Source of the DNA: Sphingomonadales bacterium
GTDB lineage: Bacteria > Pseudomonadota > Alphaproteobacteria > Sphingomonadales > Sphingomonadaceae
Length of the DNA: 64,000 bases
Direction: 5' to 3'
Assembly (NCBI GenBank): GCA_027486415.1
Contig: JAIXPC010000008.1
Location: forward strand, 186,001 to 250,000
The notes under the pieces are model-generated. The model had not been told where the DNA came from. It saw nothing but the letters and a program-made list of their open reading frames with translations, and made no database searches. A program made the position numbers and the translations under genes. Below are positions 55,571 to 60,785 of the stretch, one piece after another (position 1 is the first letter of the stretch; each line of letters begins with the position of its first letter).

Positions 55571-57817
55571 ATGGCAAGCCTGATTTCCGACGACAGCAGC
55601 ATCATCGAAGCCCCGTTCGGCGCCGCGCTGGGCGATCGTTACCTCGTCTACGCCCTGTCCACGATCACGGCGCGTTCGCTGCCCGATCTGCGCGACGGGC
55701 TGAAGCCCGTGCACCGCCGCCTGCTGTGGGCGATGCGGCTGCTGCGCCTGAACCCCGACCAGGGTTACAAGAAATGCGCCCGCGTGGTCGGCGACGTGAT
55801 CGGCAAATATCACCCGCATGGCGATGCATCGGTTTACGACGCGATGGTGCGCCTTGCCCAGGATTTCGCCCTGCGCGTGCCACTGGTCGATGGCCAGGGC
55901 AATTTCGGCAATATCGATGGCGATAACGCCGCGGCCATGCGCTATACCGAAGCGCGGCTGACCGATGCCGCCATCCGCCTGATGGACGGGCTGGACGAGG
56001 AGTCCGTCCCCTTCCGCACCACCTACAATGGCGAGGAAGAAGAGCCGGAGGTGTTCCCCGGCCTGTTCCCCAATCTGCTGGTCAACGGCGCCGCCGGCAT
56101 CGCGGTCGGCATGGCGACCTCCATTCCGCCGCACAACCCCGTGGAAATCGTCGACGCTGCCCTGCACCTGCTGCGCGCGCCCGATGCCGCCGATGCCGAT
56201 ATCCTGCAGTTCGTCACCGGCCCCGATTTCCCCACCGGCGGCGTGCTGGTCGAACCGCCGGCCAGCATTGCCGAATCCTATCTGACCGGCCGCGGCAGTT
56301 TCCGCCTGCGCGCACGCTGGCAAGTGGAAGACCAGGGCCGCGGCACCTGGACGATCATCATTTCCGAAATCCCCTACCAGGTGCTGAAGGGCAAGCTGAT
56401 CGAGCAGCTGGCCGAACTGATCACCGAGAAGAAGCTGCCGATCCTCGCCGACGTCGCCGACGAAAGCGACGAGCAGCTGCGCATCGTCATCACGCCACGG
56501 TCGCGCAACGTCGATCCCGATGTGCTGATGGAAAGCCTGTTCAAGCTGACCGATCTGGAAGTCCGCATTCCGCTGAACATGAACGTGCTCGACGAAGGCC
56601 GCCCCGGCGTGCTGGGCCTGAAGCCGGTCATCGCCAAGTGGCTGGTCCACCAGCGCGAGGTGCTGGTGGCGCGATCGCGCTATCGCCTCGCCCGCATCGA
56701 TGCGCGGCTGGAGGTGCTGGGCGGGCTCTTGAAGGCCTATCTCAACCTTGACGAGGTGATCCGCATCATCCGCGAGGCCGATGATGCCAAGGCCGAGTTG
56801 AAGGCGGCGTTTGACCTGACCGACGTGCAGGCCGACGCCATCCTCAACATGCGCCTGCGATCGTTGCGCCGGCTGGAAGAGATCGAGATCACGCGCGAGA
56901 ACAAGGCGCTGACCGAGGAAGCCAAGGGCCTGCGCGGCCTGATCGCCAGCGAAGCCGAGCAGACGGAGCGGCTGGGCAAGGATCTGGCGGCCCTGCGCGA
57001 GGCCTATGGCCCGACGACAGCACTCGGCCGCCGCCGCACCAGCATCACCGCCGCCCCGCAGGTGAAGATCGTGCCGATCGAGGCGATGATCGACAAGGAA
57101 CCGATCACGGTCATCTGTTCGGCCAAAGGCTGGATTCGCGCCATGAAGGGTCACGTGGACCTCGCCAGCACCGATGCCATGAAGTTCAAGGAAGGCGACG
57201 GCCCGGCCTTTGCCTTCCACGCCCACACCACCGACCGGCTGGTGCTGGCTGCCAGCGACGGGCGCTTCTACACGCTGTCACCCGAACGCCTGCCCGGCGG
57301 GCGCGGCCTGGGGGAACCGGTGCGGCTGATGATCGATCTGGCCGAAGGCACCCAGATCGTCGCGCTGTTTGCCCACCAGGCGGAGCGCCGCCTGCTGCTT
57401 GCCGCCAGCGACGGGCGCGGCTTCCAGATCGACAGCGCCGAACTGCTCGCCGAAACCCGCAAGGGCCGGCAGGTGATGAGCCCGAAAGGCAGCGCGCGCC
57501 TTTGCGTGGTGCGCTGGATCGCGCCGCAGGACGACATGGTGGCGGTGATCGGTGAAAACCGGAAATTGCTGGTCTTCCCGCTGGAGGAACTGCCGCAGCT
57601 GCGCCAGGGCCAGGGCGTTGCCCTGCAGAAGTACAAGGATGGCGGCATGAGCGATGTTCGCACCTTCGTGATGGCGGAAGGGCTGAGCTGGCCGATGGGT
57701 GGCGGTTCGGGACGGACACGCACGGAGGCCGACCTGACCTTCTGGAAGGGCGCGCGCGCCAGCGCCGGGCGGATGCCGCCCACCGGCTTCCCGCGCGACA
57801 ACACGTTCACCGCCTGA
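55571..57817 (+). CDS. parC: DNA topoisomerase IV subunit A
   Basis: ParC cuts and rejoins DNA to decatenate chromosomes with ParE. The 748-residue product has the GyrA/ParC core with catalytic Tyr125 ([10 protein letters not shown]), the quinolone-determining region [15 protein letters not shown] and C-terminal pinwheel repeats ([25 protein letters not shown]). In the quinolone region, residue 86 is Ala where E. coli ParC has Ser80, and residue 90 is Asp where E. coli has Glu84. Confidence 0.96.
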
Positions 57818-57857
57818 GCTATCGCCAGCCGGGCCGGCGCGGAGTAAGAGCGATGCC

Positions 57858-57998
57858 ATGATCGGTATCGCCCTCGTCGCCGCCCTGAACATCGCCATGT
57901 TCGCATGGTTTTCCTACCTGTTCGCCAAGGACCCGGCGAACGTGTTCAAGCACCGGCGGCGACGGCGCGAGGACAACCAGCCTCCGGCGCAGGATTGA
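57858..57998 (+). CDS. Tiny single-TM protein (first of three)
   Basis: A 46-residue reading frame: a hydrophobic helix (GIALVAALNIAMFAWFSYLF) followed by a short linker and a strongly basic run (KHRRRRRED). It looks like an N-out or signal-anchor inner-membrane peptide with a cytoplasmic basic tail. It begins 40 bases after parC, and the next small gene starts 3 bases after its stop. No family is recognised. Confidence 0.6.
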   Translation: MIGIALVAALNIAMFAWFSYLFAKDPANVFKHRRRRREDNQPPAQD

Positions 57999-58001
57999 AC
58001 G

Positions 58002-58175
58002 ATGGTTGTCATCTTCCTCATCGTCACCTCGCTGGTCGTGGTGATGTTCATGGTCCTCACCGACACGCGCAAGAACGACAATTTCAAGCAGCTGGAACAG
58101 CGCGGCAACGATGACGTGGTGATTGCTGATGCCGGCAGCAGCGATGGTGGCGGTGACGGCGGCACTGCCGGTTGA
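58002..58175 (+). CDS. Tiny single-TM protein (second of three)
   Basis: A 57-residue reading frame with AGGA seven bases upstream. A membrane helix (VVIFLIVTSLVVVMFMVL) is followed by a charged soluble tail ending in a Gly/Asp-rich stretch (SSDGGGDGG). It is adjacent to the preceding small gene and probably translated from the same message. Function is unknown. Confidence 0.6.
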   Translation: MVVIFLIVTSLVVVMFMVLTDTRKNDNFKQLEQRGNDDVVIADAGSSDGGGDGGTAG

Positions 58176-58202
58176 ACCCTGCCGCATCGGCGGGGCACCA
58201 GG

Positions 58203-58427
58203 GTGAGCATCGCCCTGCTGGCGGCCCTGTTCCTGGTGGTGGCGCTGCTGTTCGCTGCCGCACAGGGACGTGGCACACCCCAGGCGCCGCCTCGGCCAAA
58301 AGCCCGTCAACCCCGCGTTGCACGCGACATCCCGCGTGATCCCGTGGTGGATCCCGATCTTGATCCCGCAGTCGAGCCGTGGGCCGAATGGCCAACGGCG
58401 CGCCGGGACGATGGCAGTCAACGCTGA
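58203..58427 (+). CDS. Small single-TM protein (third of three)
   Basis: A 74-residue product from a GTG start: an N-terminal helix (SIALLAALFLVVALLFAAA) and a proline- and charge-rich tail (PPRPKARQPRVARDIPRD, DPAVEPWAEWP). It is 27 bases after the second small gene and 66 bases before the SPFH gene. No family is recognised. The shared layout of a TM helix plus a disordered tail links the three. Confidence 0.55.
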   Translation: MSIALLAALFLVVALLFAAAQGRGTPQAPPRPKARQPRVARDIPRDPVVDPDLDPAVEPWAEWPTARRDDGSQR

Positions 58428-58435
58428 TTAACCTC

Positions 58436-58463
58436 TTGCAACCCTGACGACTCGCGATATGAA
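58436..58463 (+). promoter_or_regulatory. Possible promoter of the SPFH gene
   Basis: TTGCAA (-35, 4/6) and TATGAA (-10, 4/6) with a 16-base spacer. The -10 lies inside the 30-bp palindrome. Confidence 0.35.
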
Positions 58464-58484
58464 TGTGATATCACTTTTATATCG
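58455..58484. promoter_or_regulatory. 30-bp near-perfect palindrome in front of the SPFH gene
   Basis: Symmetric arrangement CGATAT, four bases, a central perfect palindrome GTGATATCAC, four bases, ATATCG. Only two of fifteen base pairs of symmetry are broken. It ends 10 bases before the ATG, covering the likely -10 and touching the GGGGG ribosome-binding site, as a repressor operator would. Confidence 0.65.
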
Positions 58485-58493
58485 GGGGTAAGC

Positions 58494-59387
58494 ATGTCTC
58501 CATCGGAAACCAACCGTCAGCCCAGCCGGGAGGTCACCGGCGTCGGTGCCAACGGCATTGCCATGCTGGTGCTGCTGCTGATCGATCTCATCGCCATGAT
58601 CGGCGCTGCGCTGACACTGATCAAGGATGGGCCGGGGATCGCGCTGTTCGGGCTGATCGCCTTGCTGTTCGTTTTCCTGTTCATCCTGATCGGCTTTTAC
58701 AGCCTGCAGCCCAACGAGGCGGCGGCGATCACCCTGTTCGGTGAGTACAAGGGCACGGATCGCGCCAGCGGCCTGCGCTGGACCTGGCCGTGGATGGGCA
58801 AGACCAAGATCAGCCTGCGCGCCAACAACCTGATTTCGCAGCAGATCAAGGTGAACGACCAGCGCGGCAACCCGATCGAGATCGCCGCCCAGCTGGTCTG
58901 GCGCGTCACCGATTCGGCGCAGGCGCTGTTCGACGTCGATGATTATCGCGCCTTTGTCGCGGCGCAGGTGGAAGTTGCCGTCCGCACCATCGGCGCGCGT
59001 TATCCTTATGACGATTTCGAGCACAAGGAAGTGACGCTGCGCGGCGACCATGACCGCGTGTCGGCAGAGCTTCGCACCGAACTGATCGACCGGCTGGCGG
59101 TGGCCGGCATCACGGTCGATGAATGCGGCTTCACCCACCTGGCCTATGCGCCCGAAATCGCTGGCGCCATGCTGCGCCGCCAGCAGGCCGCCGCCGTAGT
59201 GGCCGCGCGCGAAACGCTGGTGGCGGGCGCGGTTGGCATGGTCGAAATGGCGCTGGCGCAGCTGAGTGCCAAGCAGGTCGTCGACCTTGATGACGAGCGC
59301 AAGGCCGCGATGGTCTCCAACCTGATGGTGGTGCTGTGCGGGGAGCGTGACACCCAGCCCGTGCTGAACGCCGGCACCCTCTATTGA
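58494..59387 (+). CDS. SPFH/band-7 domain membrane protein
   Basis: A 297-residue prohibitin/flotillin-family protein. Two hydrophobic segments (about 22-44 and 48-68) are followed by an SPFH domain ([60 protein letters not shown]) and an amphipathic C-terminal region with [23 protein letters not shown] proteins scaffold membrane microdomains and often hold proteases. It is coupled (7-base gap) to a ribbon-helix-helix protein. Confidence 0.88.
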
Positions 59388-59394
59388 TGGCGGC

Positions 59395-59601
59395 GTGACG
59401 GCCAGGAAAGCCTTTCCGCTGCGGCTCGATCCGGCGCTTCATGATGCGCTGGAACGGGTCGCAGCGGCCGATTTCCGCAGCCTGAACGCCGAAATCGAGG
59501 TGCTGCTGCGCGAGGCACTGGCCCGGCGCGGCATCAAGGTGGCAGTGAGCGCGACGCCGCGCCGGGGCCGCCCGCCGGCTCAGGCCTCCACCGACGATTG
59601 A
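59395..59601 (+). CDS. Arc-like ribbon-helix-helix protein
   Basis: A 68-residue product starting at GTG with a ribbon-helix-helix fold: beta-strand KAFPLRLD, helix 1 PALHDALERVAAAD, turn FRSLNAE and helix 2 IEVLLREALARRG, then a basic tail. Such Arc-family proteins are autorepressors or antitoxins. It follows the SPFH gene by 7 bases and may bind the palindrome upstream. Its 3' end overlaps the convergent cca gene by 22 bases. Confidence 0.82.
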   Translation: MTARKAFPLRLDPALHDALERVAAADFRSLNAEIEVLLREALARRGIKVAVSATPRRGRPPAQASTDD

Positions 59602-60785
59602 GCCGCCGCGTCAAGCATCCCGGCCACCAGCGCCGCATCATCGGGAAAACCTGCCGCCACCCAGGCGCGTTCGAACTGGCCAAGCCGCCTTGCTACCTCC
59701 GGGCCGGGCGCAACGCCGCGGGCAATGATGTCCTTCCCCGTTGCCGGCAGGCGCGGGCGCTGCCAGTCGATCAGCGGGCGTGCCGCCGCGGCATCGCCGG
59801 CCATCAGCAGGCGATCCACCACGGCTTCGGCCCCATCCGTCCACGCGGCCGCCACATGCGGGGGCGGCGGCGGCGGCGCCACGGCTGCGACCAGGCGCTG
59901 GCGCTGCGTGTTGGACAGTTTCAGCCGCGCGCCCACTTCGCTCGCCACGCGCAGATCGGCGGGCGGCAGCAGGCTGGCCAGCCGCCGTTCCCACGCCGGG
60001 GCGACGCCGGCGGCGGCTTCGGCGGCAATGGTCGTGGCCAGCATCGGCAAGCGATCCGTCGTGACTTCGGGCAGCACCGGGCGGAAGATGCCGGCATCCA
60101 GCATCAGCGCCAGCATCGGCACCGGATCAGCCAGCCCGATCAGCAGGCGCAGTTCCATGGCGATGCGCTCGCGGCTCAGGGCCATCAGGTCGTTGGCGCG
60201 CAGCCGACAGGCGGCCAGCCCATCGCCATCGATCACGGCGGCAAAGCGCGCTGAAAAGCGGAAGAAACGCAGGATCCGCAGATGATCCTCGGCAATGCGC
60301 TGCAGGGGATCGCCAATGAAACGCACGCGCCGCGCCGCCAGATCGGCAAGGCCATCGGTGTAATCGTCAATCGCCCCGCCGGGCAGCCGGGCATAGAGCG
60401 CATTGATGGTGAAATCCCGCCGCAGCGCATCCTCGCGCCAATCGTCGGTGAAGGCGACCTCGGCGTGGCGGCCAAAGCTCTGGATGTCGCGCCGCAGCGT
60501 GGTGATCTCGGCGATCAGGCCCTCTCCCACCGCCGTTACCGTGCCGTGGGCGATCCCGGTCGGCACCGGTTTCAGCCCGGCGGCGGCCACGCGGCGCATC
60601 ACCTCGTCGGGCGCGAACGCCGTCGCCAGATCGATATCGGCCCCCGTCAGACCCAGCAGGGCGTCACGCACGGCGCCGCCGACCAGCCGCGTCGCCCCGG
60701 CATCGGCCTCCAGCGCGGCCAGCAGGGCACGGCCTGCCCGGGTATCGGCCCAGGCTTGCGGCGGCAATGTATCGGGCAGTCTCAT
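59580..60785 (-). CDS. cca: CCA tRNA nucleotidyltransferase / poly(A) polymerase family
   Basis: The enzyme adds or repairs CCA at tRNA 3' ends. From the ATG at 60785 it has 401 residues, with the nucleotidyltransferase motif LVGGAVRDALLG, the metal-binding DIDLAT, RRDFTINALYA and the neck-region ILRFFRFSARFA. The longer open frame upstream overlaps the NUDIX gene and is unsupported. Start and stop of the pair overlap as ATGA. Confidence 0.93.
   Translation of the reverse strand: MRLPDTLPPQAWADTRAGRALLAALEADAGATRLVGGAVRDALLGLTGADIDLATAFAPDEVMRRVAAAGLKPVPTGIAHGTVTAVGEGLIAEITTLRRDIQSFGRHAEVAFTDDWREDALRRDFTINALYARLPGGAIDDYTDGLADLAARRVRFIGDPLQRIAEDHLRILRFFRFSARFAAVIDGDGLAACRLRANDLMALSRERIAMELRLLIGLADPVPMLALMLDAGIFRPVLPEVTTDRLPMLATTIAAEAAAGVAPAWERRLASLLPPADLRVASEVGARLKLSNTQRQRLVAAVAPPPPPPHVAAAWTDGAEAVVDRLLMAGDAAAARPLIDWQRPRLPATGKDIIARGVAPGPEVARRLGQFERAWVAAGFPDDAALVAGMLDAAAQSSVEA

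Follow-up and report, generated by a model that had tools for sequence, protein, structure and literature searches.

A probable autorepressed SPFH-RHH gene pair with a helically phased GATATC operator in a Sphingomonadales bacterium

To our knowledge, the function and regulation of most bacterial SPFH proteins are unclear, and the question of what governs the production of such a protein is raised by a locus in a Sphingomonadales bacterium (GenBank assembly GCA_027486415.1, contig JAIXPC010000008.1, positions 186,001–250,000; this 64-kb stretch is called the window below, and its genome comprises 2,709,801 bases). Here, an SPFH/band-7 gene (58494–59387, plus strand, 297 amino acids) is followed, 7 nt past its stop codon, by a short ribbon-helix-helix (RHH) gene (59395–59601, plus strand, 68 amino acids, GTG start), while a palindromic element and three small membrane-protein genes downstream of parC lie in front of it. 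The initial annotation had suggested that the small proteins may be partners of the SPFH oligomer and the RHH protein a regulator binding to the palindrome. The comparison with relatives gives strong support to the idea that the putative Arc/FitA/HicB-like RHH protein regulates the SPFH operon at this element, and we consider it likely, with good confidence, that the two genes form an autorepressed membrane-scaffold cassette with a helically phased GATATC operator, in which the SPFH scaffold would very probably control its own production.

The element at 58455–58484 (no strand assigned), previously described as a 30-bp palindrome, exists but is imperfect, with symmetry at 26 of 30 positions, and is better described as three GATATC-like boxes (58456–58461, 58467–58472 and 58478–58483) placed exactly 11 bp from one another. 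The pattern GATATN6GATATC with at most one mismatch gave four matches in the window, every one inside the operator, with 0.14 expected and none of 100 shuffled sequences reaching four. Exact matches in the 2.7-Mb genome were limited to two overlapping registers of this same element, and the reversed control pattern had none; at up to two mismatches there were 137 forward and 141 reverse matches (14 and 18 with the reversed pattern). Over 143 upstream regions from relatives, two boxes with at least a 5/6 match to GATATC each were spaced by 11 bp in 111 regions, by 22 bp in 23, by 12 bp in one and by 10 bp in none, with 0.7 regions of spacing 11 expected from shuffles, and a third box (at least 4/6) stood at plus or minus 11 bp in 52 loci. 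Because the 11-bp spacing is kept while the flanks vary, an array of palindromic boxes was preferred over a single long palindrome bound by one protein, which was abandoned. RHH dimers that sit side by side on DNA, as those of Arc do with its 11-bp half-operators, need sites one helical turn apart.

The candidate SPFH promoter consists of a weak -35 hexamer TTGCAA (58436–58441, plus strand), read from the sequence, and a -10 word TATGAA (58458–58463), which overlaps box 1. Of 20 loci from the genus and family, 14 had a TTG-N15-17-TATAAT-like layout whose -10 word falls inside box 1; the weaker word of the window was built into this search, and the independent count is 13 of 19. A promoter scanner run over 57700–59750 returned no promoter-like site, and the earlier claim that operator and promoter overlap therefore rests on the comparison of congeners. 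Since the -10 word lies inside box 1, occupation of the operator should block RNA polymerase. In the proposed mechanism, the RHH protein would bind two or three GATATC boxes which, 11 bp apart, face the same side of the DNA and span the -10 region of the SPFH promoter, and would in this way repress its own operon.

At a cut-off of E ≤ 0.001, 30 of 41 genomes had an SPFH match, distant SPFH proteins included, and 24 close loci (L001–L024, the window's own among them) were compared together with a named-species set (the best 80 of at least 595 loci) and with 27 loci from an even phylum-wide sample of 299 genomes, 28 of which matched at E ≤ 1e-30 (again including the window's own). An RHH gene follows SPFH in 24/24, 77/80 and 25/27 of these loci, respectively, and a box pair scoring at least 10/12 lies no farther than about 150 bp upstream in 22/24, 76/80 and 25/27, while mononucleotide-shuffled upstream windows reached this score in 11 of 2400, 35 of 8000 and 17 of 2700 cases (63 of 13,100 overall) and none of the 180-bp stretches downstream of SPFH did. 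Box arrays are thus present upstream of SPFH homologues, where the initial annotation had allowed that the palindrome might be lacking. At L020, L080, L081 and L095 the box pair is located farther upstream, and at L024 none was found farther upstream either; L091 and L094 have the operator, and their sequences stop 301 and 6 nt past the SPFH gene, while L088, L182 and L183 have neither RHH nor operator. In one pooled set both features were present in 128 loci and both absent in seven, with RHH alone in three and the operator alone in none.

With the conserved SPFH C-terminus (described below, in its widened form) as a third feature, 133 of 152 loci carry RHH, operator and tail, 15 carry none and four are mixed (L020, L024, L187 and L189), so that gene, operator and tail are present or absent together. 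Two loci on the same contigs as L008 and L018 (L031 and L035) and four at contig ends (L091, L094, L111 and L204) were left out of this count; the former two are still included in the 143 spacing regions and in the 136 loci used for the tail. The trio was found in named loci of Pseudomonadota, Planctomycetota (5), Verrucomicrobiota (4) and Acidobacteriota (1) and in plasmid records of Deinococcota (L184, L212), Actinomycetota (L185), Bacteroidota (L188, L190, L205) and Bacillota (L191), with phylum labels as in the records, many of which are metagenome bins, and with three of the eight phyla represented by one locus each. The joint presence and absence of RHH and operator around SPFH at loci of eight phyla favors the proposed, sequence-based assignment of the RHH protein as an operator-binding regulator of SPFH.

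The RHH-negative, operator-free loci were L088 (score 9), L182, L183, L186, L192–L194, L201–L204, L206–L208, L210 and L211, of which L204 ends 159 nt after the SPFH gene, and a sensitive RHH search of these 16 loci gave nothing below E 0.38. L193 and L208 are near-identical, so that the 15 negatives amount to about 14 distinct ones; these two represent a Pseudomonas aeruginosa plasmid record and an "Enterococcus phage" contig with near-identical SPFH and branch lengths of 0, and such phage records are unverified contigs, which may be host DNA. The viral collection yielded one locus, cut off by the contig end. Both states occur within Deinococcus (L184 and L212 with RHH, L186 and L211 without it), and additional Gammaproteobacteria included three RHH-positive loci with a 12/12 operator and four RHH-negative ones at 8 or below. 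Eight further plasmid loci were assigned an expectation from the reach of the tblastn match toward the C-terminus, which was not recorded beforehand and came after some gene tables had been seen; seven behaved as expected (L205, L209 and L212 present; L206, L207, L210 and L211 absent). Apart from the pair itself there were no conserved extra neighbors, with no Pfam family occurring in more than four of the 109 neighbor frames scanned (out of 156 listed, selected as longest frames, some surely spurious), which is consistent with a self-contained cassette of SPFH and RHH.

Besides the silent promoter scanner, several results weigh against this interpretation. The named-species set leans to close relatives, and three RHH-positive loci have operator scores below 10 (L024, 6; L187, 9; L189, 8), the last two being alphaproteobacterial plasmid loci with weak boxes. 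Among the eight plasmid expectations one failed, with L208, expected to be positive, having no RHH, no operator and a C-terminus without the LY ending. A phylogeny built from 100 SPFH domains, each shortened by its final 12 residues and together representing 85 of the 137 RHH-positive and all 15 negative loci, requires about four changes of the RHH state, two of which are forced by well-supported branches, and several RHH-negative rows are on long branches with unsure placement; with so few changes the locus counts overstate the evidence. Only two independent pairs could be formed, which gives a sign test p of 0.5 and puts significance out of reach. In 200 random pairings the tail followed RHH in both pairs in all 200, and the operator did so in both pairs in 193 and in one pair in the remaining 7. 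The monomer model of the RHH protein, a single helix with a pTM of 0.42, is poor and unusable.

The box word is also not exclusive to the pair. A stricter pattern, TGATATN5TGATATCA, to which the window's own operator does not fit, occurred in 12 of 289 genomes of the class (the reversed control in 3), and 14 of the 16 pattern-only loci had no SPFH-RHH pair in the fetched 3 kb, with the pair present at the other two (L141 and L151). At L145 and L146 (site at position 1501 in each) FitA/VapB-like RHH genes, named by reading alone, have an 11-bp GATATC array shortly before or at their start, and one of these genes is followed by a PIN-like frame of 140 amino acids, likewise named by reading. Related RHH proteins may have such boxes in common, and the remaining pattern-only loci may be due to chance. 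In another alphaproteobacterium (L140, about 1490–1530) three GATATC-like boxes 11 bp apart are located upstream of small frames, with no RHH gene in the 3 kb fetched.

The RHH protein itself matches Pfam Arc (PF03869) marginally, at 20.9 bits vs the cut-off of 20.4; 12 of 34 aligned members match Arc at E ≤ 0.01, and the proteins also resemble HicB, ParD-like and FitA-like antitoxin models. Residues 56–61 (RRGRPP; window 59560–59577), in the tail of the protein, resemble an AT-hook, and among 121 loci that have both RHH and operator, 72 encode an [RK]GRP word in the RHH protein, mainly in Sphingomonadales. A pairing of this tail with AT-rich operators was considered and dropped, the difference being small (spacer A+T 0.91 vs 0.82) and confounded with lineage. 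The RHH partner is named "HicB family antitoxin" in L209 (3216–3407) and "PTS ascorbate transporter subunit IIC" in L212 (3241–3438), and such inconsistent annotation hides the pair.

The SPFH protein belongs to Pfam Band_7 (PF01145; E 4e-19, 69.8 bits vs a cut-off of 23.6), with membrane helices predicted at residues 21–45 and 48–66, the SPFH domain at about 68–218, a long 40-residue helix at 220–259 and a C-terminal helix at 267–282. Its monomer structure model has a mean pLDDT of 86.7, residues 290–297 being below 50 and unreliable, and Foldseek against the PDB placed human stomatin best (E 1.2e-13), followed by HflK, prohibitin and QmcA among the matches. The sequence profile search gave HflK as the best hit (E 2.5e-6) and no solved close relative by sequence, while an assignment as HflK/C equivalog was not obtained with the NCBIfam models, both scores being below threshold (hflK 15.7 bits vs 159.4, hflC 12.4 vs 134.4). 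We infer that the protein is a small scaffold of the stomatin type, held in the membrane by these two helices; since the number of membrane helices is even, the SPFH domain and the tail are presumably on the same side as the N-terminus, in the cytoplasm, where the RHH protein would also be located. The SPFH fold followed by a long helix is common to stomatin, QmcA-NfeD, HflK/C and prohibitin, from which this protein differs in having two N-terminal membrane helices and in ending some 80 residues past the SPFH domain.

Its extreme C-terminus, PVLNAGTLY in the window (codons 59358–59384, plus strand), is conserved. The motif N-x-G-x-[LI]-Y near the end of SPFH was present in 131 of 136 RHH-positive loci and in none of 10 RHH-negative ones, usually as P-x-x-N-x-G-[ST]-[LI]-Y with at most one residue after it; the RHH-positive exceptions were the frame-broken L020 and the variants L175, L187, L188 and L190. 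The rule was initially strict (final Y) and was widened to Y, H or N after variants had been seen in Bacteroidota and elsewhere. Of 17 loci whose RHH domain begins at a distance of over 90 nt (at most 798), 16 retain the tail, and its codons vary, L/I being written with seven and Y with two. These two observations ruled out a signal for ribosome binding or coupling and argue for selection on the tail peptide.

Twelve prokaryotic SPFH subfamilies have been distinguished (Hinderhofer 2009, PMC2636767), and the relevant sections of that work describe NfeD-type operon partners for three of them (SPFH1, 2 and 5), an NfeD gene with 229 of 353 SPFH1 members and, for other subfamilies, accompanying genes without identifiable conservation across SPFH operons. 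The partner in the present pair is an RHH regulator rather than NfeD: RHH is the downstream gene in the window, and NfeD is not among the 25 of 83 families listed for the 109 neighbor frames. A P. aeruginosa SPFH study names no RHH neighbor in its abstract and sections 19 and 20 (PMC13086221), and the one paper found for SPFH together with ribbon-helix-helix names, in the passages considered, HflK/C and a QmcA homologue with NfeD (PMC8656257). In the open-licence literature, excluding preprints and most subscription papers, no description of the SPFH-RHH pair was found (one of the queries being TGATATCA), nor anything on SPFH with the Arc family, with annotation phrases or with autorepression and an operator, while SPFH with CopG led to three papers on eukaryotic subjects as judged by title and abstract. 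The pair shares with Arc/FitA-type repressors the RHH family by Pfam, and it has several candidate half-sites one helical turn apart in the promoter of its own operon, to which binding is predicted; unlike these repressors, its RHH gene adjoins a membrane scaffold instead of a phage or toxin gene and has a GATATC box array and, in Sphingomonadales, an AT-hook-like tail. As in FitAB, where the antitoxin acts on a shared promoter (PMC3920265, relevant part), an RHH gene stands beside its partner, but the partner is an SPFH protein without toxin domain and RHH is the second gene. A regulator devoted to the scaffold, whose operator can be recognised and is kept in at least eight phyla, would help to tell when the scaffold is made, the co-inherited C-terminal peptide points to a specific and quickly testable interaction, and the GATATC array helps to find and name a pair otherwise concealed under several unrelated names.

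More speculatively, the ...NxGxLY peptide of SPFH might dock the RHH protein, so that promoter activity would be set by how much scaffold there is or by how it is assembled. An ancient cross-phylum sensor, in which the many tails of an SPFH oligomer capture the repressor and the scaffold's promoter, by way of the helically phased GATATC operator, directly reads how the membrane microdomain is assembled, is a tentative extension to which we give roughly one chance in three. The tail may instead be read by a protease or another membrane factor and track RHH because both mark one SPFH subfamily, for which we would put the chances only a little short of even: C-terminal peptides are common protease tags and there are few independent events on the tree, but L088, nested in RHH-positive Caulobacterales, is without RHH, operator (score 9) and tail ending together, and the tail persists with varied codons where RHH is distant. 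The upstream position of the boxes and their one-turn spacing would also suit an activator or architectural protein, or a regulator acting mainly on other genes, and AmrZ, a weak sequence match of RHH (E 0.24), is both activator and repressor; the overlap of the boxes with the likely -10 region in congeners and the lack of another exact site in the genome make this unlikely. A toxin-antitoxin system in which SPFH is the toxin and RHH the antitoxin could be suspected from the resemblance of RHH to antitoxin models and from the two operator-like sites which elsewhere adjoin FitA-like genes (by reading), but is highly improbable, with SPFH relatives existing without a nearby RHH gene, no toxin-like domain by Pfam (the partner being Band_7) and nothing found by PADLOC, which also reported no defence system. 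The gene of a type II antitoxin is usually the first of its pair, and here SPFH comes first.

The view of the initial annotation that the small proteins are partners of the SPFH oligomer, with five genes forming one functional module, draws on their adjacency in most congeners, on conserved frames with purifying selection on the first two and on the small membrane partners of other SPFH proteins (NfeD; PMC2636767). Presence and absence decide against it, the whole-genome search covering the first small protein. Its profile matched 22 of the 24 genus members searched and none of 36 genomes outside the genus (17 of which were also searched for SPFH, four carrying the SPFH-RHH pair, L021–L024), and it matched 19 of 20 genus loci and none of 132 SPFH loci from elsewhere (best E 0.36). 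Moreover, gene 1 is present in G006, G021 and G023, where the SPFH search gave no match; the fetched 3.1 kb of these loci contain gene 1 and no SPFH, and two of the loci have another small membrane frame behind gene 1. G006 and G023 are, however, fragmented (460 and 410 contigs, G021 having 3), so that the absence there could be a gap. Since gene 1 persists where no SPFH was found and the congener G020 has a frame-broken SPFH without gene 1, the two units are separable, and the candidate SPFH promoter and operator lie between them. A five-gene module is therefore quite improbable, and the small proteins were judged, for proteins 2 and 3 from the fetched loci, to be neighbors outside the preferred SPFH-RHH cassette; they would represent a genus-specific stretch after parC with no part in its mechanism. 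In G020 (L020) the SPFH frame is broken (two tblastn pieces), the RHH frame is still present and small gene 1 is absent. In L139 a tblastn match over 27 residues (E 6e-4) had hinted at the remnant of an RHH gene, but this was not supported when the frames were read.

All five frames were confirmed at their predicted positions on the plus strand, the small ones being 57858–57998 (46 amino acids), 58002–58175 (57) and 58203–58427 (74, GTG start), each with a single membrane helix. The gaps of 3–27 bases given for them hold between genes 1 and 2 (3 nt) and 2 and 3 (27 nt) but not after parC, which ends at 57817, leaving 40 nt. The nonsynonymous/synonymous ratio, computed for the first two, was about 0.40 for gene 1 (11 loci, 55 pairs, first 34 codons) and about 0.45 for gene 2 (7 loci, 21 pairs, first 33 codons), and the small frames are probably genuine genes. 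Gene 2, the product of which has a weak sub-threshold match to Pfam YxzE (E 1.8e-4), is kept after gene 1 in many, though not all, congeners among the fetched loci. Frame 3 is variable, and in several congeners a longer frame has a GGGDFGGGGASGSW-type tail. This glycine tail, which resembles those of TPM-domain proteins, was seen on the last small membrane frame, in the parC-SPFH interval or in the place of SPFH, in L002, L006–L010, L012, L015, L017 and L138.
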